Position numbers and translations under genes: made by a program. From the IMG/VR virus record IMGVR_UViG_3300046642_000199, positions 1 to 41,394 of that record: a stretch of 41,394 bases of DNA. One strand, given 5' to 3'. The notes under the pieces are model-generated. The model saw only the letters and a list, made by a program, of their open reading frames with translations. It had not been told where the DNA came from and ran no database searches. Of the stretch, positions 27,684 through 39,325 are shown one piece after another (position 1 is the stretch's first letter; each line of letters opens with the position of its first letter). The stretch comes from a virus.

Positions 27684-28412
27684 ATGAATTTTTTCGGACG
27701 AGATGTTTCAGAGCCTGCCGGTCGGCATGAGCGGGTGGCATTGGCGATCGAGCACAGCAAGCTCTCTAAAAGCGAGATGGCGAAGCGCTGCGGTGTGTCC
27801 CCATCCGCCGTTACTCAGTGGACGACTGGCGAAACCGCATCTATAAAACCAGAGAACCTTTTCGCACTGGCTTCAGAGTCAGGAGTTAGCGCAAGGTGGA
27901 TCGCGACTGGTGAGGGAGTCCCGGAACCATTCACTCCGGGGCAAAATGTTATTGCGTGGGAAGCGCCTGAGGATCTTCCAAATGACCAGTTCATTATCGT
28001 GCCTCGCATTGAGGTGAGATTTGCAGCAGGGACGGGAGAAATGGTGATAGAGGAAGTGCACCAGGATCAGGGAAACGCATATCGGATGGATTGGATTAGG
28101 CGAAAGCGGCTGAACCCCAAGAATCTTTCAGACTTCATAATCACTGGCGAATCGATGGAGCCAACACTCCCGGAGGGATCCAAGGTCACACTTGACTTAA
28201 GCAACACCGCAATTCAGGACGGTAAGGTTTATGGGATCCGGTACGGCAACGAATTGCGTATCAAGCGGCTATATAAGAGATTCGACGGAGGCCTTATCAT
28301 TCGCTCCGACAATTCCTCGAAGAATCCAGATGAAAGTCTGAACCCTGACCAGCTTGAGCATGTATCCGTCATCGGGAGATACGTAGCCCACAGTTTCGAC
28401 GGAGACATCTAA
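27684..28412 (+). CDS. cI: CI-like repressor with S24 peptidase domain
   Basis: 242 residues from ATG 27684, with AGGG seven bases upstream. N-terminal HTH (residues ~20-50: IEHSKLSKSEMAKRCGVS) binds operators. The C-terminal LexA/CI-type domain has Ser157 in GESMEPT and Lys194 in LRIKRLY, the autoproteolysis pair, and a candidate cleavage site Ala115-Gly116 in FAAGTGE. RecA-stimulated self-cleavage during SOS would derepress both outward promoters. It is flanked by operator clusters on both sides and ends at a strong terminator. Confidence 0.92.
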   Translation: MNFFGRDVSEPAGRHERVALAIEHSKLSKSEMAKRCGVSPSAVTQWTTGETASIKPENLFALASESGVSARWIATGEGVPEPFTPGQNVIAWEAPEDLPNDQFIIVPRIEVRFAAGTGEMVIEEVHQDQGNAYRMDWIRRKRLNPKNLSDFIITGESMEPTLPEGSKVTLDLSNTAIQDGKVYGIRYGNELRIKRLYKRFDGGLIIRSDNSSKNPDESLNPDQLEHVSVIGRYVAHSFDGDI

Positions 28413-28440
28413 ACCGAACGTCTAATAGATTTGTCACTGA

Positions 28441-28464
28441 AGCCCGCCTAGCGCGGGCTTTTTG
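28441..28464 (+). terminator. Terminator of cI
   Basis: AGCCCGC-CTAGC-GCGGGCT followed by five T. Perfect 7-bp stem, 29 bases after the cI stop. It separates cI from the rightward promoter region. Confidence 0.88.
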
Positions 28465-28475
28465 TCGCATCATGA

Positions 28476-28488
28476 TTAAGCATGCTAA
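28476..28488. promoter_or_regulatory. Operator O4 (right cluster)
   Basis: TTAAGCATGCTAA, one base shorter in the right half than O1. Confidence 0.7.
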
Positions 28489-28497
28489 ATTTTTTTA

Positions 28498-28511
28498 GTA
28501 AGCATGCTTGA
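28498..28511. promoter_or_regulatory. Operator O5 (right cluster)
   Basis: GTAAGCATGCTTGA; overlaps the -35 of the rightward promoter. Shares the AAGCATGCTT core with O1. Confidence 0.72.
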
Positions 28512-28536
28512 CGCAGCCTTTTAAGCAAGCTTAAAT
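28508..28536 (+). promoter_or_regulatory. Rightward early promoter (controls DGR operon)
   Basis: TTGACG (-35), 17-bp spacer, TTAAAT (-10). O5 overlaps the -35 and O6 the -10. The -10 and spacing are the same as in the leftward promoter. It is the only strong plus-strand promoter before the DGR genes that I can see. Confidence 0.75.
28521..28534. promoter_or_regulatory. Operator O6 (right cluster)
   Basis: TTAAGC-AA-GCTTAA, perfect half-sites, overlapping the rightward -10. Confidence 0.78.
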
Positions 28537-28663
28537 GACCTCAAGCCGAACGAAACACCGGCCAGGGCCTGACAAGACCCGCCACACGACTGGTGAAGCC
28601 GCCAGATAGCCCGGGATCAGCGAAGTGATCTCCAAGCCTCCGGAAGGAGACCGACTTGAACAA

Positions 28664-28722
28664 AGCTCTTTAAGCAGAACGGAATGACAGATTTCCTCGA
28701 TGCGCTTGGCAACAGGCGCATC
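28664..28722 (+). promoter_or_regulatory. nut-like leader: boxA-like element and hairpin
   Basis: AGCTCTTTAAG at 28664-28674 matches the boxA GCTCTTTA core of rrn and lambdoid leaders. A perfect 7-bp stem GATGCGC/GCGCATC with a 10-base loop follows at 28699-28722. Position about 130 bases after the rightward start suggests antitermination control. No N-like gene was identified. Confidence 0.45.
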
Positions 28723-28748
28723 CGGAAAATCAACCGGAGGAACACAGC

Positions 28749-29021
28749 ATGCAAATCAATCAGCAGAAAACAGTGCAGGTCGACGTGACCGAGCTGCACC
28801 TGCACATCAAGGTGCGTGACGGCTTCGCTGCCGACCTCAAGGATGCGCAGGGCGAGGAAGTCGGAAGCTATGAAGGCTACGTGCCGGACTTCTTCCCGGG
28901 TGACCACTACGGCGACTACCTGATCCTGAACATCGATCTGGAAACCGGCCAGATCAAGAACTGGAAGAAGCCCACCGCCGGCGACATCGAAAAGATGCTC
29001 GCTCAAGGTGAGGTCGACTGA
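28749..29021 (+). CDS. Conserved hypothetical, first gene of rightward operon
   Basis: 90 residues, GGAGG upstream. The sequence alternates strands and acidic turns (TVQVDVTELHLHIKVRDGF, then YEGYVPDFFPGDHYGDYLIL) and ends with a helix. The form VPDFFPGDHYGDYLILNIDLETGQI resembles small phage proteins of unknown function in the same early location. Followed by a structured noncoding stretch. Confidence 0.65.
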   Translation: MQINQQKTVQVDVTELHLHIKVRDGFAADLKDAQGEEVGSYEGYVPDFFPGDHYGDYLILNIDLETGQIKNWKKPTAGDIEKMLAQGEVD

Positions 29022-29061
29022 ACAACCAGCGCCACGACAGCCTGTCGTTAACTGCCCGATC

Positions 29062-29156
29062 CTCTCTATGAGAGCGCATCGGGGTGTGATCTGAGTACCG
29101 TCTGGCTGCGTGAGAGCAATGCCAGGCAAACGTCATGCAGATCACACCCCGATGCG
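29062..29156 (+). ncRNA. Structured RNA-like element, copy 1 (upstream of DGR target 1)
   Basis: A small hairpin CTCTC-TAT-GAGAG (29062-29074) is followed by a perfect 19-bp inverted repeat: CGCATCGGGGTGTGATCTG at 29075-29093 and its complement at 29138-29156. The 44-base interior holds a further CTGGC/GCCAG hairpin (29102-29125). The same arms recur at 29916-30109. Too long and regular for chance. Function unknown; could be RNA or a DNA cruciform. No open frame of interest crosses it. Confidence 0.6.
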
Positions 29157-29290
29157 GAAGAGTACACACCGCGCAACGCGGCCACCTGCATCACCTCACC
29201 GCTAACGCAACACCCAGTCGCGCCTCCAGTAGAGAGCGACCGGATATCAGGTGGCATCTGGCTGTTTCCGGATCGCCATCTGGCTTTACA

Positions 29291-29317
29291 AATGCCTCTC
29301 AAACCCCGGGAGGCATT
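29291..29317 (+). promoter_or_regulatory. Leader hairpin upstream of DGR target 1
   Basis: AATGCCTC/GAGGCATT, perfect 8-bp stem with an 11-base loop, 32 bases before the target 1 ATG. The preceding 29157-29290 also has near-direct repeats (two copies of CATCTGGCT). Could affect translation of target 1. Confidence 0.5.
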
Positions 29318-29349
29318 CGAAAGCCACAACAACCCGACAGGAAATCAAC

Positions 29350-29829
29350 ATGAACACAGCGCAGAGTATTCAGCCACCAGCCATTGGTGAGGTTTGGCCA
29401 GGCCAAGGCGGAATTTACGCAGGCGTAATGCCTGCACGCGGTACAGAGTCGAGTTACCACCTGATCCTTGGTGATGAGTTGGGCAGTTTCGAGTGGGGTC
29501 CGTACGGCGACCTGTCGCCAGCCAGCAGCCTGATCGATGGGATGGCCAACACCGCCGCATTGGTTGATTCCGATGGTGAATACCCAGCAGCAGTTGCCGC
29601 CTACGAGCACAAGGCAGAAGGTCATGCCGACTTCTACCTTCCCGCCGCTGCCGAGCTTTATGAGATATGGCTGAACCTCAACGGTAGGCTGACTGGCTGG
29701 GTTTGGTCGAGTTCGCAGTATTCCGCCTACTTCGCCTTCCACATGGACTTCGTAGATGGCTGGCTCACCACCACCGACAAGGACTACGAGCGGCTCGTCC
29801 GCCCCGTCCGCAGATTGCCTATTCAGTAA
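29350..29829 (+). CDS. DGR target protein 1 (C-type-lectin-like, DUF1566-type)
   Basis: 159 residues, AGGA seven bases upstream. The body (IGEVWPGQGGIYAGVMP, GSFEWGPYGD, DGMANTAAL, then GHADFYLPAAAELYEIW) is closely like target 3, and the C-terminal 36 residues are encoded by variable repeat VR1 (29713-29813), reading SSSQYSAYFAFHMDF and DGWLTTTDKDYE, ending VRPVRRLPIQ. This is the CLec fold used by DGRs to display variable ligand-binding residues at the C-terminus. Variation occurs at codons with adenine in TR. It stands 8.3 kb from the template and has drifted at 8 non-adenine positions. Confidence 0.85.
   Translation: MNTAQSIQPPAIGEVWPGQGGIYAGVMPARGTESSYHLILGDELGSFEWGPYGDLSPASSLIDGMANTAALVDSDGEYPAAVAAYEHKAEGHADFYLPAAAELYEIWLNLNGRLTGWVWSSSQYSAYFAFHMDFVDGWLTTTDKDYERLVRPVRRLPIQ
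29713..29813 (+). repeat. DGR variable repeat VR1
   Basis: 101 bp aligned without gaps to TR 38125-38225. 11 differences at TR adenines and 8 at other bases; five of the latter lie in the GC-rich 3' end that acts as the initiation of mutagenic homing. Confidence 0.85.
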
Positions 29830-29880
29830 TTCATTTATTGCTTTTGATCTTCGTCGCGCGTCCGCCTGACGTAAATCGGC

Positions 29881-30109
29881 CCGATATCTCTCTAGGAAAA
29901 CTCGTTTAGAGAGGGTGCATCGGAGTGTGATCTGAACCGCCAGCAGACATTAAGGCGCTGGCAGCTAGCCGAAAAGCGAGGGTTCGCAACCTCGGGAGGA
30001 ACGCGAGACCACGACCAGGCAGTGAGAAATCACCGGAGCGTGGCTTGAGGGGGCGCACTCAGAGGCGCAAAGCGGGGCTTGCCTTCCGCGCAGATCACAC
30101 CCCCATGCA
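29881..30109 (+). ncRNA. Structured RNA-like element, copy 2 (downstream of DGR target 1)
   Basis: A CTCTCTA/TAGAGAG hairpin (29888-29913) leads into arms TGCATCGGAGTGTGATCTG (29916-29934) and their complement (30091-30109), 17 of 19 pairs. The 156-base interior holds several stems: GCCAGC/GCTGGC (29939-29962), CGA-GGTT/AACC-TCG (29977-29994), CCACG/CGTGG (30009-30043) enclosing a GTGA-GAAA-TCAC hairpin with a GNRA loop (30022-30033), and GCGG/CCGC (30072-30089). This is a multibranched design absent from copy 1. It lies just before a terminator. Function unknown. Confidence 0.62.
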
Positions 30110-30250
30110 GGTACAGCTGCAAGCGCCCGATTGGACGGCGCACGAACCTGTACGGCCACGCGGAGGATTTGCAGCCATGTAACAGACAGCCAAGCCCTCC
30201 AGCAGGAGGCAAATATCCCCTGACGTAGGGAGGTCTGCGTTAGGAAGTAA

Positions 30251-30278
30251 AGCCCGGCATACGTGCCGGGCTTTTTAT
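30251..30278 (+). terminator. Rho-independent terminator after DGR target 1 region
   Basis: AGCCCGGCA-TACG-TGCCGGGCT followed by TTTTATT. Perfect 9-bp stem. It closes the target 1/structured RNA segment. The 118-bp stretch 30279-30396 has a small TCGCT/AGCGA hairpin but no promoter I can defend, so the downstream genes need readthrough or an unseen promoter. Confidence 0.92.
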
Positions 30279-30396
30279 TGGATTCGCTCCCACAGCGAGC
30301 ACCACCATTTGAAGGCTCTATTCCGGTGTTTTCAGGCGGAATTATGCCGAAATTCAGCTATTTCAGCACCACCCCACTCCTACAGGAATAGCAGCC

Positions 30397-30525
30397 ATGA
30401 AACGCACAACCCCACCCCTCCCCCGCAAGCCCCGCCCCGACGTCCACGACTGCGCCAAGGGTCGGATGCACGACCCGGTTGCCAAGCGTGTCGTTGTCAC
30501 TATGCCAGGCGGGTATATCGCATGA
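30397..30525 (+). CDS. Short basic protein
   Basis: 42 residues, Lys/Arg/Pro-rich N-terminus (MKRTTPPLPRKPRPDVHD), then HDPVAKRVVVTMPGGYIA. AGGAATAG-type site upstream. The stop overlaps the next start (ATGA). Function unknown. Confidence 0.5.
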   Translation: MKRTTPPLPRKPRPDVHDCAKGRMHDPVAKRVVVTMPGGYIA

Positions 30526-30671
30526 GAAACAAGCATCCCGGCACCTGCTACCGCTGCAATCAGCGTGTAGAGGTCGGCCAAGGCCACTTTGAGCGGTATT
30601 CAGGCGGCTGGCGAACTCAACACGCCGACTGCGCCGTCAAGGCCAAGCAAGAAAAGCGCACACCTGAATAA
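30522..30671 (+). CDS. Small zinc-finger-like protein
   Basis: 49 residues: CYRC near residue 9, then H22 and HADC near residue 35, a plausible Cys/His zinc site, with Arg/Lys ends. Overlaps its upstream neighbour by 4 bases. Possibly nucleic-acid binding. Confidence 0.6.
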   Translation: MRNKHPGTCYRCNQRVEVGQGHFERYSGGWRTQHADCAVKAKQEKRTPE

Positions 30672-30694
30672 CCCCGCCACTACTGGAGGCGATC

Positions 30695-31135
30695 ATGAAC
30701 GCAAGATTCAACGCAATGCTCGAAGGCGCCCAGCGCGACTACGACAATCGCCTCGCGCCTCCAGTCAGTGAGACGCCGGAAGAGTTGGCGCGGGATGAGT
30801 GGCTGTACAACGCCGCCGAGCAACTGGTTCGGTTCGGCTGCGACGTGAAGGTGCAGCGCCGGATGTGCAAGCCGCAGGTCGTCACCACCGCCGACTTAGA
30901 TCTGGCCGTAGACGAGCATGTGAATCGCCGCTTGGCTGATTGCGAAGTCGGCTCGCCGGCACTTGGCCGACTGCTGAACTCACTGGCCGGCTCAGAGCCC
31001 GACAAGAACGCTCAGGTTGAACTGCTCGGTCACAGCGACCATCCGCTCGGCATGCTCGGCGAAATCGCTGAGAAGCTGCTACAGCCACTCGTAGACGATG
31101 CGCTGATTGCTCAGTCAGAGGACGGTGAATTGTGA
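30695..31135 (+). CDS. Conserved phage hypothetical protein
   Basis: 146 residues with GGAGG at the start. Largely helical: an acidic, DNA-binding-type helix pair (DEWLYNAAEQLVRFGCDVKVQRRMC), then ADLDLAVDEHVNRRLADCEVG and a C-terminal helix ending in DALIAQSEDGEL. No known family. Probably cotranscribed with the next six short genes. Confidence 0.6.
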   Translation: MNARFNAMLEGAQRDYDNRLAPPVSETPEELARDEWLYNAAEQLVRFGCDVKVQRRMCKPQVVTTADLDLAVDEHVNRRLADCEVGSPALGRLLNSLAGSEPDKNAQVELLGHSDHPLGMLGEIAEKLLQPLVDDALIAQSEDGEL

Positions 31136-31341
31136 ACAACCACGCCATCGCCATTCAGGCTATCGAGTCGGCCATCCGAACGATGCTACTTCCAGGGCAA
31201 GGCGACATCGCCGAAGCCAAGGCCGAGACGATGATCGTCAGTTATTTCTCGGTTCACGTCATCAACTCAGACGAATTCAACCACTACTGCGAGCGAGTCC
31301 GGCGGATTGCTGTGCGTACTCGTGAGGGAGATGCGGCATGA
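31132..31341 (+). CDS. Small helical protein
   Basis: 69 residues; starts inside the previous stop (4-base overlap). Helix-rich (IAIQAIESAIRTMLLPGQGDIAEAKAETMIV). Unknown function. Confidence 0.55.
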   Translation: MNNHAIAIQAIESAIRTMLLPGQGDIAEAKAETMIVSYFSVHVINSDEFNHYCERVRRIAVRTREGDAA

Positions 31342-32763: not shown

Positions 32764-32876
32764 CGTCGCATCAACGCGCCCGCCGCCTACTCCTTTGGCG
32801 CGGAAGCTTCCCTGTACTCGCCATCTTTACTTTCCTGATGGTTCTCAGCGCTCTAGCTGATCGAATCACTCAATAA
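32760..32876 (+). CDS. Tiny membrane protein
   Basis: 38 residues: an Arg-rich N-terminus then one hydrophobic helix (FPVLAIFTFLMVLSALA). Overlaps the preceding stop by 4 bases. Confidence 0.5.
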   Translation: MTSHQRARRLLLWRGSFPVLAIFTFLMVLSALADRITQ

Positions 32877-32917
32877 ACCGAACTCACACGCCGCCTGCAT
32901 GGCGGAAGGATCTCCCC

Positions 32918-34075
32918 ATGTCTGCGAATCAAATTGCCGTCACCATCGACGACATCAGCGAAGCCAATGCGCCAATCATCTACGTCAAAGGCGGCCTGAG
33001 CCAGTTTTTCGACGCAGTGAAGGAGGAAGTCAGCACTCAGGTTCCAGATCTAAAGACTGCGAAGGGCCGCGAGCGCATCGCCTCACTTGCCGCCAAGGTC
33101 AGCAAGTCCAAGGTCGCCGTCGAGAAGCCGGGGCGCGAATACCTGAAACGCCTGAAAGAAATGCCAAAGGTTGTGGAGGAAGAGCTTCGCACATTCGTGA
33201 GCGCCATGGATGCTCTGCGGGACGAGACGCGCAAGCCGCTGACCGACTGGGAGGCCGCAGAGACTGCACGCAAGGATGCTCATGTAGATGCGGTACAGGC
33301 CATTCACGATTACTGCGACGTCGCTGAAGGCACCACTGCTGCCGCTCTTCTGGAGTCAATCACCGCTGTCGAAGCAATCCAGATCGACGACAAGTGGGAA
33401 GAGTTTGAGATCGAAGCGTCTCGCGCTAAGGAGTCGACACTAACCAAGCTTCGTCGTGAGTTTGTGGCTCGCCAACAGTACGAAGCTGAGCAGGCTGAAC
33501 TGCTGCGCTTGCGGGCGGAAGCCGAAGCACAGGCCCAGCGCGACCACGACGCCGAGATTGCCCGCGCTGCCGCTGAGCAGGCCCGCATCGAAGCGGAACA
33601 ACGCGCTCAGGCTGAGCGTGAATCCGCCGCACGGCGTGAGCAGGAACTGCTGGAACAGGCAGCCGCCACACAGCGCGCAACAGAGCAAGCCGCGCGGGAC
33701 GCAGAGGCAGCAGCAGAGCGGCAGCGCCTTCAACTGCAGCTTCAGGCTGAGCAGGCCGAACGCCAAGCAGCACAGGCCGAAGCCAACCGCATTGCAGCGG
33801 AGCAGCGCGCAGAGCAGGAACGCATTGCCGCCGAACAGCGCCAAGCGCAGGCCGTCGAGCAAGCTCGCCAGAAGGAACTGGATCGTCAGGCCGCAGCTGC
33901 TGCTTACGAACTGGAACAAGCTCAGGCCCGCGAAGCCGACCTTGAGCACAAGAAGTCGATCAATCGCGCTGCGCTGGAAGCCTTCGTTGCTGGCGGCATG
34001 ACCGACGAATGCGCCAAGCAGGCAGTCACCTTGATCGCTCAGCGCAAGATTCCAGCCGTTTCCATCACTTACTGA
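32918..34075 (+). CDS. Coiled-coil protein preceding RecT
   Basis: 385 residues with GGAAGGA upstream. The first ~170 residues are a globular helical domain. Residues ~190-345 are a long Ala/Glu/Gln/Arg-rich coiled coil (for example ARQQYEAEQAELLRLRAEAE). The end carries the recognisable FVAGGMTDECAKQAVTLIAQ and KIPAVSITY, common to phage proteins encoded just upstream of RecT-type annealing genes. TolA annotations sometimes given for such proteins come from the coiled coil alone. Probably a recombination accessory factor. Confidence 0.65.
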   Translation: MSANQIAVTIDDISEANAPIIYVKGGLSQFFDAVKEEVSTQVPDLKTAKGRERIASLAAKVSKSKVAVEKPGREYLKRLKEMPKVVEEELRTFVSAMDALRDETRKPLTDWEAAETARKDAHVDAVQAIHDYCDVAEGTTAAALLESITAVEAIQIDDKWEEFEIEASRAKESTLTKLRREFVARQQYEAEQAELLRLRAEAEAQAQRDHDAEIARAAAEQARIEAEQRAQAERESAARREQELLEQAAATQRATEQAARDAEAAAERQRLQLQLQAEQAERQAAQAEANRIAAEQRAEQERIAAEQRQAQAVEQARQKELDRQAAAAAYELEQAQAREADLEHKKSINRAALEAFVAGGMTDECAKQAVTLIAQRKIPAVSITY

Positions 34076-34082
34076 GGTCGTT

Positions 34083-35027
34083 ATGAGCACAGCCATCGCA
34101 ACCATCACTCAGGACATCTACGGCGCGCGCAATCAGTTCGCCAATGTCCTGACCGATCGCTCGCTCAACTTCGAGCGAGAAGCAGAGTTCGCCATTCAGG
34201 TGATTACCTCTGGCGAATACGCTACCAAGATTGCCTTACAAAACCGGCAATCGGTAGTAAACGCGATCACCAATATCGCAGCGATCGGGATCAGCCTGAA
34301 CCCAGCCAAAAAACAGGCTTATCTGGTGCCGCGCGACGGAAAGATCTGCCTTGATATCAGCTACATCGGCCTGATGGATTTGGCCATGGCAACCGGCGCT
34401 ATCTGCTGGGCTCAAGCGGAGCTGGTTTACTCCACCGACTCGTTCGTCCTCAATGGCTTCGACAAGCCACCTACCCATCAGTACAACCCATTTGCCAAAG
34501 ATCGCGGCGAGGTGATCGGCGTTTACGTCGTGGTCAAGACAGCTGGTGGCGACTACCTCACAGAGACGATGAGCATCGACGATGTGAACGCCATCCGAGA
34601 CCGTTCCAGCGCTTGGAAGGCATGGATCAGCAAGCAGAAATCCTGCCCTTGGGTAACAGATCCCGGCGAGATGGCGAAAAAAACCGTCGTCAAGCGCGGC
34701 TACAAGTTCTGGCCGAAGACTGACCGACTTGAGCAGGCTATCCATCACCTCAACACGGATGGCGGCGAAGGCTTGGCAGGCATGCCCGGCGCAGCGCCTA
34801 CCGATCCTGAGCTGGTAAACGGCTGGATCGATTTGGCAATGAATGCCGGTAGCCTGGAAGCGTTGGCCGATGTTTACCGCCAAGGAACAGCCGCCATGAA
34901 GCAAGCGAAAGACGCTGTAGGTCATGCTCGTTTCAAGACGGAAGTAACCAAACGCGGTGAGACGCTGAAGGCTACCGACGCGCCAATCGAAGGCGAAGCT
35001 GAGGAGGTGTTAGATGGAGCAGCGTAG
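34083..35027 (+). CDS. recT: RecT-family single-strand annealing protein
   Basis: 314 residues. RecT features: SIL-type N-terminus, SVVNAITNIAAIGISLNPAK, QAYLVPRDGKICLDISYIGL, then GEMAKKTVVKRGYKFWPKTDRLEQAI with the typical conserved K-K-T-V-x-K and a C-terminal acidic end. It pairs with the exonuclease encoded next. RecT/Exo pairs repair and recombine phage genomes and in this operon could also assist DGR homing, which needs strand exchange at the VR (inference). Confidence 0.9.
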   Translation: MSTAIATITQDIYGARNQFANVLTDRSLNFEREAEFAIQVITSGEYATKIALQNRQSVVNAITNIAAIGISLNPAKKQAYLVPRDGKICLDISYIGLMDLAMATGAICWAQAELVYSTDSFVLNGFDKPPTHQYNPFAKDRGEVIGVYVVVKTAGGDYLTETMSIDDVNAIRDRSSAWKAWISKQKSCPWVTDPGEMAKKTVVKRGYKFWPKTDRLEQAIHHLNTDGGEGLAGMPGAAPTDPELVNGWIDLAMNAGSLEALADVYRQGTAAMKQAKDAVGHARFKTEVTKRGETLKATDAPIEGEAEEVLDGAA

Positions 35028-35643
35028 CGAGGAATGGTTTGCAGCGCGCCTCGGGAACGTAACGGCCAGTCGCGTCAAGGATGTGATGGCCAGCGGGCGC
35101 GGCGGCGCGCCTTCTGCATCTCGGAAAAATTACATGATGGAGTTGCTGTGCGAGCGCCTGACCGGCCAGCAGGGCGGCATGGATTTGTCACGCAACGCCG
35201 CCGTGCAGCGCGGCGTCGAACTGGAGCCATTCGCCTGCATGGCCTACGAGGCCGACAAGGGGCTGATGGTCGTCGAGACAGGCCTTGTAATGCATCCGAA
35301 GATCAAAGGCTTCGGCGCATCGCCTGACGGGCTGGCGGCCGATGATGGGGTGCTTGAAATCAAGTGCCCGAACACAGCGACTCACATCGCGACCATGCAA
35401 TCTGGCCGGCACGACCCGCAGTACGAATGGCAGATGCTGGCCCAGATGGCATGCACTGGGCGGCATTGGGCTGACTTCGTGAGCTACGACGACCGCCTGC
35501 CGGAAGAATTGCAATACATCTGCTTCCGCTACGAGTTCGACTATAAGCGCGGGCGCGAGATGGAATCCGAGATCAAGGCCTTTCTGGAAGAGCTGGCCGA
35601 ACTGGAACAGGAAATGCGGGGCCGAATGAGAGGTGCAGCATGA
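35014..35643 (+). CDS. YqaJ-type recombination exonuclease
   Basis: 209 residues from ATG 35014 with GAGGAGG upstream, overlapping recT by 14 bases. Motifs: RSEEWFAARLGNVTASR (near 4-20), Asp105 in GASPDGL, Glu115-x-Lys117 in LEIKCP, and Gln140 in YEWQMLAQM. These are the lambda-exonuclease/YqaJ catalytic residues. It resects 5' ends for the RecT protein. Confidence 0.92.
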   Translation: MEQRSEEWFAARLGNVTASRVKDVMASGRGGAPSASRKNYMMELLCERLTGQQGGMDLSRNAAVQRGVELEPFACMAYEADKGLMVVETGLVMHPKIKGFGASPDGLAADDGVLEIKCPNTATHIATMQSGRHDPQYEWQMLAQMACTGRHWADFVSYDDRLPEELQYICFRYEFDYKRGREMESEIKAFLEELAELEQEMRGRMRGAA

Positions 35644-36305
35644 ACGCCTACATCAGCAGCGACATCAACATGGTCAAGGAGCTAGATCCGAAACGTCATG
35701 AGCTGGCCCTGCTACAGGCGGACTGGCTTGAAAAAGGAGGGACTATTGAGGTTCTGTCCGGGCCGAGCTTCAAACCGGCGCCTGAACGACATGAGCCACC
35801 ACCGAAACCAGTTGTCCCCGCAAAGATCGAGCCGCCAAAACCGCCAAAGCCACTGACGGCAGCCGCCGCCCGGCAGAAGACCAATCGCCAGATAGAACGA
35901 GACGAACGCACCGCTGAGCGCTTGAAGGAACGCAACAAGCTGACAGAGCAGGCACGCGAACTCGCGCTTACCATGAACTACACGCAGGCGATGAGGGCCA
36001 CAGGCAAATCAAGAAAGCTGCTCATGACTATCGCCAAAGAAGGCGGATTTAGCTTTCAGGTTGCCACGTATATTGGCCACCAAAATCTAAGGCCGCACGA
36101 AGTAGACGAAGCCAAGGACGCCAAGGACGCAGAGCGCATCAAGGCATTCAAAGAACTTGGCCTGACACGCAACCAGGCACGAGAAAAGGCAGGCATCACT
36201 TTCCCAGCATTCATTCGCATCCTCGAAAAGTTCCAAATCGACTATCCCAAGGCAAAACGCGGCGGCCCTCGCCCTGCTTTCTTCCAGAAAGTACCGAAGC
36301 AATAA
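35640..36305 (+). CDS. HTH-containing protein with Pro-rich linker
   Basis: 221 residues overlapping the exonuclease stop by 4 bases. Residues ~45-75 are Pro/Lys-rich (PPPKPVVPAKIEPPKPPKP), followed by a basic helix and two HTH-like repeats: NYTQAMRATGKSRKLLMTIA and LTRNQAREKAGITFPAFIRI. Probably DNA binding. Last gene before the DGR core; possibly a regulator of it, but unproven. Confidence 0.6.
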   Translation: MNAYISSDINMVKELDPKRHELALLQADWLEKGGTIEVLSGPSFKPAPERHEPPPKPVVPAKIEPPKPPKPLTAAAARQKTNRQIERDERTAERLKERNKLTEQARELALTMNYTQAMRATGKSRKLLMTIAKEGGFSFQVATYIGHQNLRPHEVDEAKDAKDAERIKAFKELGLTRNQAREKAGITFPAFIRILEKFQIDYPKAKRGGPRPAFFQKVPKQ

Positions 36306-36361
36306 CCCAACCTTTCATGCTGCATCCGGTTTCGGAGGGCGGCGCATACCCGGAGAAAACC

Positions 36362-36838
36362 ATGACTCAACATGCACAGCAATCCGTATCCGCCGCCGAC
36401 CTGCCAGAACGCGGTCAACCTCTCGCAGGTGGCACCTTCGTCACTCGCTACTGGTTGAACGGCGAAGAGCGCGCACTCGTCCTGCTCGACAACGAGCTGA
36501 TTGGCACCTGGGGCAAGTACGGCGATGACGTTGCCGGCGCCCAAAGCCTTAGCGACGGCGCCGCCAACACTCGCGCCATGGCTGAAGCCGGCAGCGATAT
36601 CGCGGTGAAAGCGCTGCAGCTGGATGCGCACATCCCGTCCTACCTCGAAGGCGCTCTGCTGATGGCAGCGAAGGCCGAAGGCCTGGTCACCCTGCGCGAG
36701 GATCGTTGGCACTGGCTGAGTTCGCAGTTCTCCGCCAACAGCGCGTACGACATGGGCTTTGGAGATGGCTGGCTCTGCACCAACGTCAAGAACGACGAGC
36801 GCGTCGCGCGCCCGGTCCGCAGCCTTCCTATTCAGTAA
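36362..36838 (+). CDS. DGR target protein 2 (C-type-lectin-like)
   Basis: 158 residues from ATG 36362 (GGAG upstream). The N-terminal half (RGQPLAGGTFVTRYWLNGEERALVLLDNEL, GTWGKYGDD, DGAANTRAM) is a diverged version of the targets 1 and 3 body. The last 36 residues derive from VR2 (36722-36822) and end in RPVRSLPIQ. VR2 keeps 9 adenine-directed changes and just one other. Its 3' flank shares CCTATTCAGTAATTCATT with target 1, beyond the TR homology, so those two ends share ancestry. A short intergenic hairpin follows. Confidence 0.85.
   Translation: MTQHAQQSVSAADLPERGQPLAGGTFVTRYWLNGEERALVLLDNELIGTWGKYGDDVAGAQSLSDGAANTRAMAEAGSDIAVKALQLDAHIPSYLEGALLMAAKAEGLVTLREDRWHWLSSQFSANSAYDMGFGDGWLCTNVKNDERVARPVRSLPIQ
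36722..36822 (+). repeat. DGR variable repeat VR2
   Basis: 101 bp, gap-free with TR. Differences at 9 TR adenines and one C to G (synonymous GCC to GCG). The 3' GC-rich IMH region is identical to TR. Confidence 0.92.
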
Positions 36839-36875
36839 TTCATTCCTTCATTTCTTTTATGCAGGCGATTCCCGG

Positions 36876-36894
36876 GAGCGTCAGGACGACGCTC
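36876..36894 (+). repeat. Hairpin downstream of VR2
   Basis: GAGCGTC-AGGAC-GACGCTC, perfect 7-bp stem, 54 bp past VR2. DGR cruciforms near the VR 3' end are required in Bordetella phage BPP-1; the distance here is larger. Confidence 0.5.
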
Positions 36895-36956
36895 AGACCA
36901 GAAGCTTGCCGGGTAGCGCCGGCGGCCTGCGCCCAATTCGCTCACAGGAGCATCCC

Positions 36957-37544
36957 ATGCAACTGATTAACGTAAGTGATGGAACCACCACGCTCTCCAC
37001 GCCGAACCCGGAGTTGGCTCTGCAAGTTCTCTCCGGGATGGTCGCCGCGGCAAAGCCAGTCGCAAGTCTGATCGGCGTCCCAGCCGTTGGCGAGGTTTGG
37101 CCGGGCGAAGGTGGCGTTAACGGTGGCCTGTTCCCGGGCGACGGCAAGCCCTACTACCTGATCGTCCCAACCGGCGCCGATGCTGAGGGAGAGTTCGAAT
37201 GGGGTGGTTACGGCAACGAACTCAACGGTGCGAAGAGTGCTTGGGATGGCCGAGCAAACACGGACGATCTGATCGGTGCAGATGACTCCTACCCCGCAGC
37301 ACAGTTCTGTGCCGCCTTCGAGCGCGAGGGTCACAAGGACTTTCATCTGATGTCCCGTCGCGAGGCTTCGTTTCTGGAGATCACGCTGGGCGACAAGAAT
37401 GTCTTCAGCAAGCGCTACCACTGGACCAGCTCGCAGTTCTCCGCCGACTACGCCTACATCATGGCCTTTGTAGGTGGCTGGCTCAACCTCAGCGGCAAGC
37501 ACCTCGAGCGCGTCGCGCGCCCGGTCCGCAGACGATTTATTTGA
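36957..37544 (+). CDS. DGR target protein 3 (C-type-lectin-like)
   Basis: 195 residues from ATG 36957 with ACAGGAG upstream. An extra N-terminal ~40-residue segment (VSDGTTTLSTPNPELALQVL) precedes a target 1-like body (VGEVWPGEGGVNGGLFPG, GEFEWGGYGN, WDGRANTDDL, GHKDFHLMSRREASF). The C-terminal part comes from VR3 (37431-37531). All 13 VR3 differences fall at TR adenines, so it was diversified recently and by the present TR. Directly followed by avd. Its short C-terminus (RRRFI) differs from RRLPIQ and RSLPIQ. Confidence 0.88.
   Translation: MQLINVSDGTTTLSTPNPELALQVLSGMVAAAKPVASLIGVPAVGEVWPGEGGVNGGLFPGDGKPYYLIVPTGADAEGEFEWGGYGNELNGAKSAWDGRANTDDLIGADDSYPAAQFCAAFEREGHKDFHLMSRREASFLEITLGDKNVFSKRYHWTSSQFSADYAYIMAFVGGWLNLSGKHLERVARPVRRRFI
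37431..37531 (+). repeat. DGR variable repeat VR3
   Basis: 101 bp, gap-free with TR, 13 substitutions, all at TR adenines (to G, T or C). The GC-rich 3' end is identical to TR. Confidence 0.95.
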
Positions 37545-37564
37545 TCCTTCAATCCTTCATTCAT

Positions 37565-37580
37565 GGGCGCGATAGCGCCC
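37565..37580 (+). repeat. GC hairpin downstream of VR3
   Basis: GGGCGC-GATA-GCGCCC, perfect 6-bp stem, tetraloop, 33 bp past VR3 and 9 bp before the avd ribosome site. Candidate DGR cruciform; CTTTTC after it also allows weak terminator activity. Confidence 0.55.
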
Positions 37581-37601
37581 TCGCTTTTCAAGGAGGCCAG
37601 G

Positions 37602-37955
37602 ATGGCCCTTCACATAGATCTGGAGATCCACAAGGTTGCAGAAGAACTGCTTGGCATGTCGCTCGACCTGGTGCGCAACATCCCTCGCGACCTTAAACAG
37701 GTCGTAGGAGCGAAGATTCGAGACGAGTGTCTGCAGGTTCTGGTGCTGATTGGTCGGACCAACATGTCGCGAGACAAGCTGCCCCACCTGAACCTCCTAC
37801 TGGAAAGCATTTGGATGCTGAATTACTTGCTGCGAGCGCTTACCAATAAAGCGCTGATCAGCAAAGGGCAGCACGCCAAAGCAATGAAGTTAACGGCATC
37901 TGTAGGTCGACAGGCAAATGCCTGGAAGAAGTCCGCAACCGCGCCCGCTGCGTGA
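37602..37955 (+). CDS. avd: DGR accessory variability determinant Avd
   Basis: 117 residues from ATG 37602 with AAGGAGG upstream. Helical throughout and basic: KVAEELLGMSLDLVRNIPRDL, then KIRDECLQVLVLIGRTNMSRD, then LLLESIWMLNYLLRALTNKA, and SKGQHAKAMKLTASVGRQAN. This is the four-helix Avd pattern (BPP-1 Avd is 128). Avd binds the RT and TR RNA and is essential for mutagenic cDNA synthesis. Located between VR3 and TR, as in Bordetella DGRs. Confidence 0.9.
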   Translation: MALHIDLEIHKVAEELLGMSLDLVRNIPRDLKQVVGAKIRDECLQVLVLIGRTNMSRDKLPHLNLLLESIWMLNYLLRALTNKALISKGQHAKAMKLTASVGRQANAWKKSATAPAA

Positions 37956-38124
37956 GGGCCAAGGCTCTCGCGTCTGTGCGCAAAATCTGGTCGAGCCGCT
38001 GACCTCTTGGTCACCGCCATGCACACAAAAGATACCGCCGGTCTAAAGCGTCCGCGTAGGTCTTGTGCAGTTTCCTTGCTGATCGGTTCCGCCTTCGGCA
38101 AGGCGATGTAGATAGCTCGATAGG
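37956..38124 (+). ncRNA. TR leader / putative DGR template RNA 5' part
   Basis: 169 bp between avd and TR with no gene on the plus strand. In DGRs this interval and the TR are transcribed as a noncoding RNA that RT/Avd use as template and primer. Start and end of the RNA cannot be read from sequence. Confidence 0.6.
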
Positions 38125-38225
38125 TCGCAGTTCTCCGCCAACAACGCCTACAACATGGACTTTGAAGATGGCTGGCTCAACAACAACGACAAGAACAACG
38201 AGCGCGTCGCGCGCCCGGTCCGCAG
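38125..38225 (+). repeat. DGR template repeat TR
   Basis: 101 bp. Would encode SQFSANNAYNMDF and DGWLNNNDKNNE then VARPVR, with eight AAC codons, the typical adenine-rich codons of DGR templates because AAC mutagenesis avoids stops. Identity to VR2 and VR3 outside adenines. The 3' GC-rich GCGCGTCGCGCGCCCGGTCC corresponds to IMH*. It overlaps the start of the RT reading frame in another register. Confidence 0.95.
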
Positions 38226-39325
38226 ATTTAAGTGTTGCACCCTTCCAGTTCGAAGATCTCGTCCAAGCGTATTACGACTGCCGCCGGAACAAGCGGAACA
38301 CCGCGAGCGCCCGGCACTTCGAGAAGGATATGGAGATCAACTTGCTGGAGCTCCACGACGACCTGATCGCCGGCACCTACCGGCCAGGCCGCTCCATCTG
38401 CTTCGTGGTCACCCGACCGAAAGCCCGCGAGGTTTGGGCAGCAGCGTTCCGGGATCGCGTCGTCCACCACCTTATGTACAACCATGTGGCACCGCGCTTC
38501 TACGCCAGCTTCATAGCGGACAGTTGCGCGTGTATCCCAGGGCGCGGCACGTTGTACGCCGCGAAACGCCTTGAATCGAAGATCCGCAGCGCCAGCCAAA
38601 ACTGGGCGAAGCCGATCTTCTACCTCAAGTGCGATCTCGCCAACTTCTTCGTCGCGATCGATAAGCAGGTGCTGCGCCAGCAGCTGGCCAAGAAGATCAC
38701 CGAGCCTTGGTGGCTGGCGCTGGCCGAAACGATCCTGATGCACGACCCGCGCGAAGATTACGTGTTGCGCAGCCCCGCCCATCTGTTCAACCGGGTGCCG
38801 CAGCACAAGCGCCTGACAGCGCAACCGGCGCACCTAGGCCTGCCGATCGGCAACCTTTCCTCGCAGTTCTTCGCCAACGTCTACCTCGACGCGCTGGATC
38901 AGTTTGCCAAGCACCGGCTCGGCGCCAAGCATTACGTCCGCTACGTCGACGACTTCGTGTTCCTGCATGATTCGCCACAACAGTTGAACGCCTGGAAGGC
39001 CGAGGTTGAATTGTTCCTGTCGACCCTCGGCGCCAAGCTGAATCCGACGAAGACCATCCTTCAACCGGTGGACCGAGGCGTCGACTTCGTTGGACACGTC
39101 ATCAAGCCCTGGCGGCGGACCACGCGGAAGCGATCACTAGCCCAGGCACTGAAACGGACCGCTGCGGCACCCGCCGAGGATCTGCGCGAAACCGCCAACA
39201 GTTACTTCGGTCTGCTCAGTCAGGCCAGCCACAGCGAGAAAGACCGCGAGAAGCTGGCCAACGTCATGCTAAAGCGCGGATATAGCGTCAATGGCTCCCT
39301 CACCAAAACCTATCCGAAGAAATGA
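38168..39325 (+). CDS. DGR reverse transcriptase
   Basis: 385 residues from ATG 38168, an ATG inside TR in a different frame; the open frame extends up to TTG 38063. No start codon lies between TR and the first conserved block (FEDLVQAYYDCRRNKR, residues 28-43), so the N-terminus must begin in or before TR. RT motifs: YLKCDLANFF (Asp156), GLPIGNLSSQ (224-233, the DGR-specific IGxxxSQ replacing QGxxxSP), and RYVDDF (Asp261-Asp262). Makes adenine-mutagenised cDNA from TR. No endonuclease or maturase X domain. Last conserved part resembles BPP-1 bRT. Confidence 0.95.
   Translation: MAGSTTTTRTTSASRARSADLSVAPFQFEDLVQAYYDCRRNKRNTASARHFEKDMEINLLELHDDLIAGTYRPGRSICFVVTRPKAREVWAAAFRDRVVHHLMYNHVAPRFYASFIADSCACIPGRGTLYAAKRLESKIRSASQNWAKPIFYLKCDLANFFVAIDKQVLRQQLAKKITEPWWLALAETILMHDPREDYVLRSPAHLFNRVPQHKRLTAQPAHLGLPIGNLSSQFFANVYLDALDQFAKHRLGAKHYVRYVDDFVFLHDSPQQLNAWKAEVELFLSTLGAKLNPTKTILQPVDRGVDFVGHVIKPWRRTTRKRSLAQALKRTAAAPAEDLRETANSYFGLLSQASHSEKDREKLANVMLKRGYSVNGSLTKTYPKK

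Follow-up and report, generated by a model that had tools for sequence, protein, structure and literature searches.

Multiple VRs have been reported for 28.6% of 948 DGRs (BMC Genomics 2019, PMC6642488). Tentaclin phages carry DGRs with two or more targets, some of them distal (PMC10743442), and gut temperate phages carry a second VR distal from the reverse transcriptase (RT) (PMC12629997). In BPP-1, a target requires a 3′ GC element matching the template repeat (TR) together with a downstream hairpin (PMC3240598), and the cDNA is primed by an adenine inside the TR RNA (PMC12875486). Here, we analyzed an IMG/VR virus record of 41,394 nucleotides (the whole stretch is called the window below). 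Its genes for tail sheath, tape measure, portal, major head and terminase identify it as a contractile-tailed phage, and its relatives are Pseudomonas phages and prophages.

The window carries an ordinary DGR cassette (36317..39325, + strand, as is every feature below whose coordinates are written with two dots), with Avd, an RT, an intergenic TR and adenine-restricted TR-VR differences. The RT (38237..39325, start codon approximate) has an intact ORF, an RYVDD motif (PF00078) and DGR-type matches (RVT_1, E=4e-15; PHROG 1423, E=9e-117). Beside it lies the local template repeat, TR-A (38125..38226), at an offset of 112 bp from the RT that is constant across most relatives. The Avd accessory protein is encoded at 37563..37955 (PF22296 bAvd, E=1.4e-14; PHROG 3206, 'Avd protein of DGR'), and a structured stretch matching RT-15 RNA (RF03018; 37939..38127) extends from avd to the TR. 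The two proximal targets are a 173-aa gene (36317..36838) with VR2 (36722..36823) and a 195-aa gene (36957..37544) with VR3 (37431..37532). Both VRs have the TR-A backbone, and their changes are restricted to TR adenines (VR2, 10/29 adenine and 1/73 other sites, p=8e-6; VR3, 13/29 and 0/73, p=7e-9). Together with a remote repeat, VR1, they and the TR form a single in-register family of 102-bp repeats. Immediately upstream of the cassette are genes for a RecT-like annealing protein and a RecE-like exonuclease (34083-35643), which could aid cDNA integration or module exchange.

The target gene of VR1 encodes 159 aa (29350..29829; PHROG 4245, unknown function), and its reading frame is intact in the window. 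The protein matched the C-type-lectin-like Lcl_C weakly and below the cut-off (E=0.0014), returned zero matches in a PDB sequence search, gave a poor AlphaFold model (mean pLDDT 44) and has only distant relatives in the phage collection (<60% identity). VR1 aligns with the TR without gaps, and 8,412 bp separate the two. A sequence-only reading had placed VR1 at 29713-29813 and counted 11 adenine-site and 8 other changes, five of the latter in the GC-rich 3′ end. Both counts are exact (11/29 adenine and 8/73 non-adenine sites), the five 3′ changes were borne out, and the start was correct, whereas the repeat runs one base further, to 29814. The non-adenine changes, at TR positions 8, 9, 39, 81, 82, 86, 87 and 93, mean that the VR1 backbone is not that of TR-A. 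Among 238 unique VRs in related Pseudomonas-phage DGRs, 226 depart from their own TR at no more than one non-adenine site, so that the eight changes in VR1 are an outlier and not noise.

A pattern scan for the 3′ end of VR1 found a TR bearing exactly its odd backbone, which we call TR-B, on contig L036. A TR identical to it over 102/102 positions lies in a prophage-like region of a Pseudomonas genome (G367). The exact pattern was present in IMG/VR in L036 only, and among 400 Pseudomonas genomes TR-B was found in G367 and a related TR in G294. A second template matching the non-adenine bases of VR1, which the sequence-only reading had proposed to look for in related phages, therefore exists. 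Compared with TR-B, VR1 of the window (29713..29814) is changed at 11/30 adenine and 1/72 other sites (p=3e-6) and VR1 of the related phage G004 at 13/30 and 0/72 (p=1e-8), and the two copies differ from each other at 17/30 adenine and 1/72 other sites (p=2e-10). This adenine-restricted match shows that the VR1 copies with this backbone were diversified by a TR-B template. At position 26, the apparent 'adenine' change relative to the local TR reflects the backbone of TR-B; at position 52 (A>C), a true adenine change was masked because the local TR has C there. The earlier suggestion that VR1 had drifted is contradicted by the same comparison, in which seven of the eight non-adenine changes equal the TR-B base (chance about 8e-11). 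Position 93 (C, not T) is unexplained by TR-B and requires the assumption of a sub-allele or a single substitution.

When both strands of the window and of the relatives G001-G004 and G006 were scanned with all template backbones, TR-B was absent, which rules out a hidden copy in these sequences and makes VR1 an orphan here. The idea that a different template serves VR1 thus holds for the past (TR-B in L036 and G367) but not for this genome or its five close relatives. The related idea of a retired target stands in part: with no matching template here, VR1 is retired or waiting, at least for now. Among the phages analyzed, none combined the VR1 gene with a TR-B cassette, so stamping in cis was not directly seen.

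The VR1 gene is carried by six IMG/VR contigs. VR1 has the TR-A backbone in G002 (L006), G003 (L007) and G006 (L010), with 0, 1 and 0 non-adenine changes, respectively; the remote locus is therefore a working TR-A target in sister phages. VR1 of G001 (L005) is identical to that of the window, including every adenine, and VR1 of G004 (L008) has the same odd backbone with other adenine sites changed. Being common to the window, G001 and G004, this backbone is not private decay. The VR1 genes of G003 and G004, one stamped by TR-A and the other by TR-B, differ at 1/363 bp of the gene body and 1/146 bp of the 3′ flank, compared with 8/71 VR1 backbone sites. The switch of stamp could reflect either homing in place or the exchange of a tract shorter than about 330 bp; these are indistinguishable because the sequence from 29561 to 29893 is too uniform, its sites outside VR1 being uninformative in most pairs. 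In the single assembly of G004, codon 33 of the VR1 gene is a stop (GAG to TAG; L008:10097) with the rest of the frame intact, which fits loss of use there. In the TR of G004 (L058), an adenine has been lost at position 28 (AAC to GAC), and L062, L067, L068, L083 and L130 likewise have TR alleles in which adenines are altered.

Comparison with two of these relatives indicates how the window was assembled. A block of 3,484 bp around VR1 (27795..31278) is 100% identical to G001, and identity to G001 is 99.4% over 32829-36345. G001 has no RT, and its cassette slot is occupied by a 600-aa C5 DNA methyltransferase (L041:5949-7748); the slot of G003 holds a different C5 DNA methyltransferase (L047:3978-5015), and that contig also has no RT. 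The cassette of the window, in turn, is identical to that of G006 over the 2,805 bp outside VR2 and VR3, and all 32 differences lie inside VR2 and VR3 (31 adenine sites and one other). VR2 and VR3 were thus rewritten in a time too short for one substitution elsewhere in the cassette, and the comparison with G006 suggests that they are under active diversification. With the surroundings of VR1 shared with G001 and the cassette with G006, the window is a mosaic of recent origin whose cassette and VR1 belong to separately exchanged modules. To judge from these alignments, the phage is a recent mosaic in which the mutation machine was swapped and the old target kept. While VR2 and VR3 were rewritten relative to G006, VR1 is unchanged at every base relative to G001, which falls short of proving that TR-A is unable to reach VR1.

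We surveyed about 120 DGR loci, taking the TR at the constant offset from the RT and scoring all VRs against all TRs. A foreign stamp was defined as at least two mismatches to the own TR and a fit at least two mismatches worse than that to another TR. Foreign stamps were found in 5 of 31 remote VRs (the window, G004, L069, L155 and G294) compared with 2 of 207 cassette-proximal VRs (L083 and L171), 238 unique VRs in all; the Fisher p=5e-4 is indicative, as the rows are not phylogenetically independent and the window and G004 possibly represent one event. No known TR is a perfect match for the VRs of L069 and L155. A discordant VR in L161 at 8519 was set aside because it seems to reflect a shift of register in the ungapped scan, and a VR with a VR2-type flank at the contig end of L008 was treated as a likely assembly joint. 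In L035 (4228-6113), a DGR has lost its TR and most of its RT by deletion; its VR2 has the TR-B backbone and its VR3 the TR-A backbone.

The 79 bp that follow VR1 (29815..29893) are identical in 6/6 close relatives, whether VR1 is stamped by TR-A or by TR-B. Loci in other phages with 3′ flanks closely similar to that of VR1 carry at least four template backbones, T00 and T21 included. No GC-rich hairpin of the BPP-1 type (4-nt loop) was found within 120 nt 3′ of VR1. VR3 is followed by such a hairpin (gggcgcGATAgcgccc at +33), and VR2 by a 7-bp stem with a 5-nt loop at +53. In a comparison of the flanks of remote and VR3-type targets (29815-29934 and 37533-37620 in the window), with mismatched stems left unscored, a GC hairpin was present within 120 nt of 97/101 VR3-type targets versus 4/29 remote VRs (random control, about 10%). 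Even so, 26 of 31 remote VRs have at most one non-adenine mismatch to their own TR. Remote targets seem not to follow the hairpin rule of BPP-1. The sequence-only reading had also taken the 3′ end of VR1 as the part that primes homing. This is dated, because BPP-1 cDNA is primed within the TR RNA itself (PMC12875486), and the five 3′ mismatches of VR1 would instead hit cDNA integration. The idea that VR1 may tolerate a divergent homing signal has only indirect support: TR-A and TR-B stamps at the same locus in relatives show that a switch across the divergent 3′ end has occurred, whether by homing or by short-tract recombination.

Two structured elements were observed near the targets. The VR1 gene is bracketed by two long inverted-repeat copies (29075-29156 and 29916-30109; GCATCGGGGTGTGATCTG ... 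CAGATCACACCCCGATGC), and a similar motif follows other remote VRs; the repeat might form a structured RNA or mark a boundary at which the VR1 module recombines. A conserved structured element of about 70 nt (36860-36930) follows the VR2 gene and some remote VRs (L148, L157, L166 and L167). It has a closing stem GCAGG/CCTGC and inner hairpins, shows compensatory changes in 7/20 pairs and has no match in Rfam.

Overall, we consider it highly probable that VR1 is an orphaned DGR target, a TR-B-stamped block that was joined by recombination to a TR-A cassette. An earlier or different cassette with template TR-B would have written VR1, randomizing the TR-B adenines in the usual way. This cassette, serving VR1 in cis or in trans, would then have been lost or replaced. 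The DGR cassette occupies an exchangeable slot, in which sister phages hold DNA methyltransferases, and the VR1 gene, about 7 kb off, belongs to a separate module. Once recombination had joined the two modules, VR1 would carry the mark of a template now gone. On the best reading, cassettes swap between phages, and a remote target keeps the imprint of the previous template until it is overwritten. We infer the order of events, stamping in cis and the lack of present rewriting of VR1.

Other accounts of the foreign backbone were weighed against this one. Neutral decay of a retired TR-A target would explain eight non-adenine changes relative to the local TR and could draw on the stop codon in the VR1 gene of G004. 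However, the base-for-base match to TR-B refutes it, the gene body and 3′ flank of VR1 are nearly unchanged and the reading frame in the window is intact, which leaves drift with a negligible probability. A second template with the TR-B backbone might instead lie on sequence missing from the window, which would make VR1 a normal active target. The window has 41 kb compared with 52-56 kb in relatives, so some sequence is missing, and the TR-B-type VR1 copies of the window and G004 differ at over half of their adenines. This account is formally conceivable but very unlikely, as G001-G004 and G006 have no TR-B and the window and G001 agree at all VR1 adenines. G004, moreover, carries a TR-B-stamped VR1 with a TR-A-type sequence as its sole template, and its contig ends overlap in the VR3 gene, so that it is probably complete.

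Alternatively, the cassette of a co-resident prophage or a co-infecting phage may have stamped VR1 in trans, without ever belonging to this lineage. TR-B does sit in a Pseudomonas genome (G367), BPP-1 DGR parts supplied on a plasmid retarget a phage VR (PMC3240598), and G001 and G003 have a stamped VR1 and no RT on the contig. However, proximal VRs would be equally exposed in trans, and their much lower share of foreign stamps in the survey fits cassette exchange better, an argument softened if proximal VRs are overwritten sooner. We regard this account as improbable. Somewhat less improbable, but still doubtful, is that the TR-A/TR-B difference moved as an allele by short-tract recombination and carries no information on re-homing at the locus. 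Given the uninformative sites around VR1, a tract as long as about 330 bp may have moved unseen here, but each allele type must still have been produced by homing from its own template where the 3′ flank is the same, and at least four template backbones occur at loci with closely similar flanks. These backbones were also counted toward a further, tentative possibility, which we hold slightly more probable than the allele transfer: that several DGR cassettes dock at the remote VR1 site and any of them can rewrite it, in cis after cassette exchange or in trans from a co-resident prophage. If so, distal VRs would be a readable record of the retroelements met by a phage lineage.

If VR1 is an orphaned target, as we favor, distal targets of DGRs can persist after their template is gone and retain the backbone of the previous one, and non-adenine mismatches between VR and TR therefore need not be decay. 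Such targets would be missed or scored wrongly by surveys demanding at least 75% of mismatches on TR adenines (for example PMC8144416). Together with its two near-identical partners, the window also offers a natural experiment: the cassette and the site are the same but the 3′ end is mismatched, so that one can test directly how far homing tolerates 3′-end divergence. We found no account of foreign-template stamps in the open-access literature, which is no proof of novelty.

Like BPP-1 and other phage DGRs, the window carries an RT, Avd and an intergenic TR adjacent to the RT; its target genes have their VRs at the 3′ end, change is specific to adenines, and the repeat is GC-rich at its 3′ end. 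Unlike BPP-1, it has three targets, one of which lies 8.4 kb off, bears the backbone of another template and has no short GC hairpin in the 120 nt that follow it. Several targets served by one cassette, with one target far from the RT, are also described for tentaclin phages (PMC10743442) and gut temperate phages (PMC12629997), but a distal VR stamped by the template of another cassette is unreported in the accessible portions of those studies. The Pseudomonas DGRs with multiple VRs (PMC6642488) likewise have several VRs per TR. However, that survey paired VRs with TRs of the same sequence, and an orphan VR with a foreign backbone would be a poor or non-adenine match. Finally, the alternation of cassette and methyltransferases in one slot, which is flanked by conserved genes, resembles modular, 'moron'-like cargo exchange in temperate phages, except that the cargo here leaves a sequence imprint at a distant gene.
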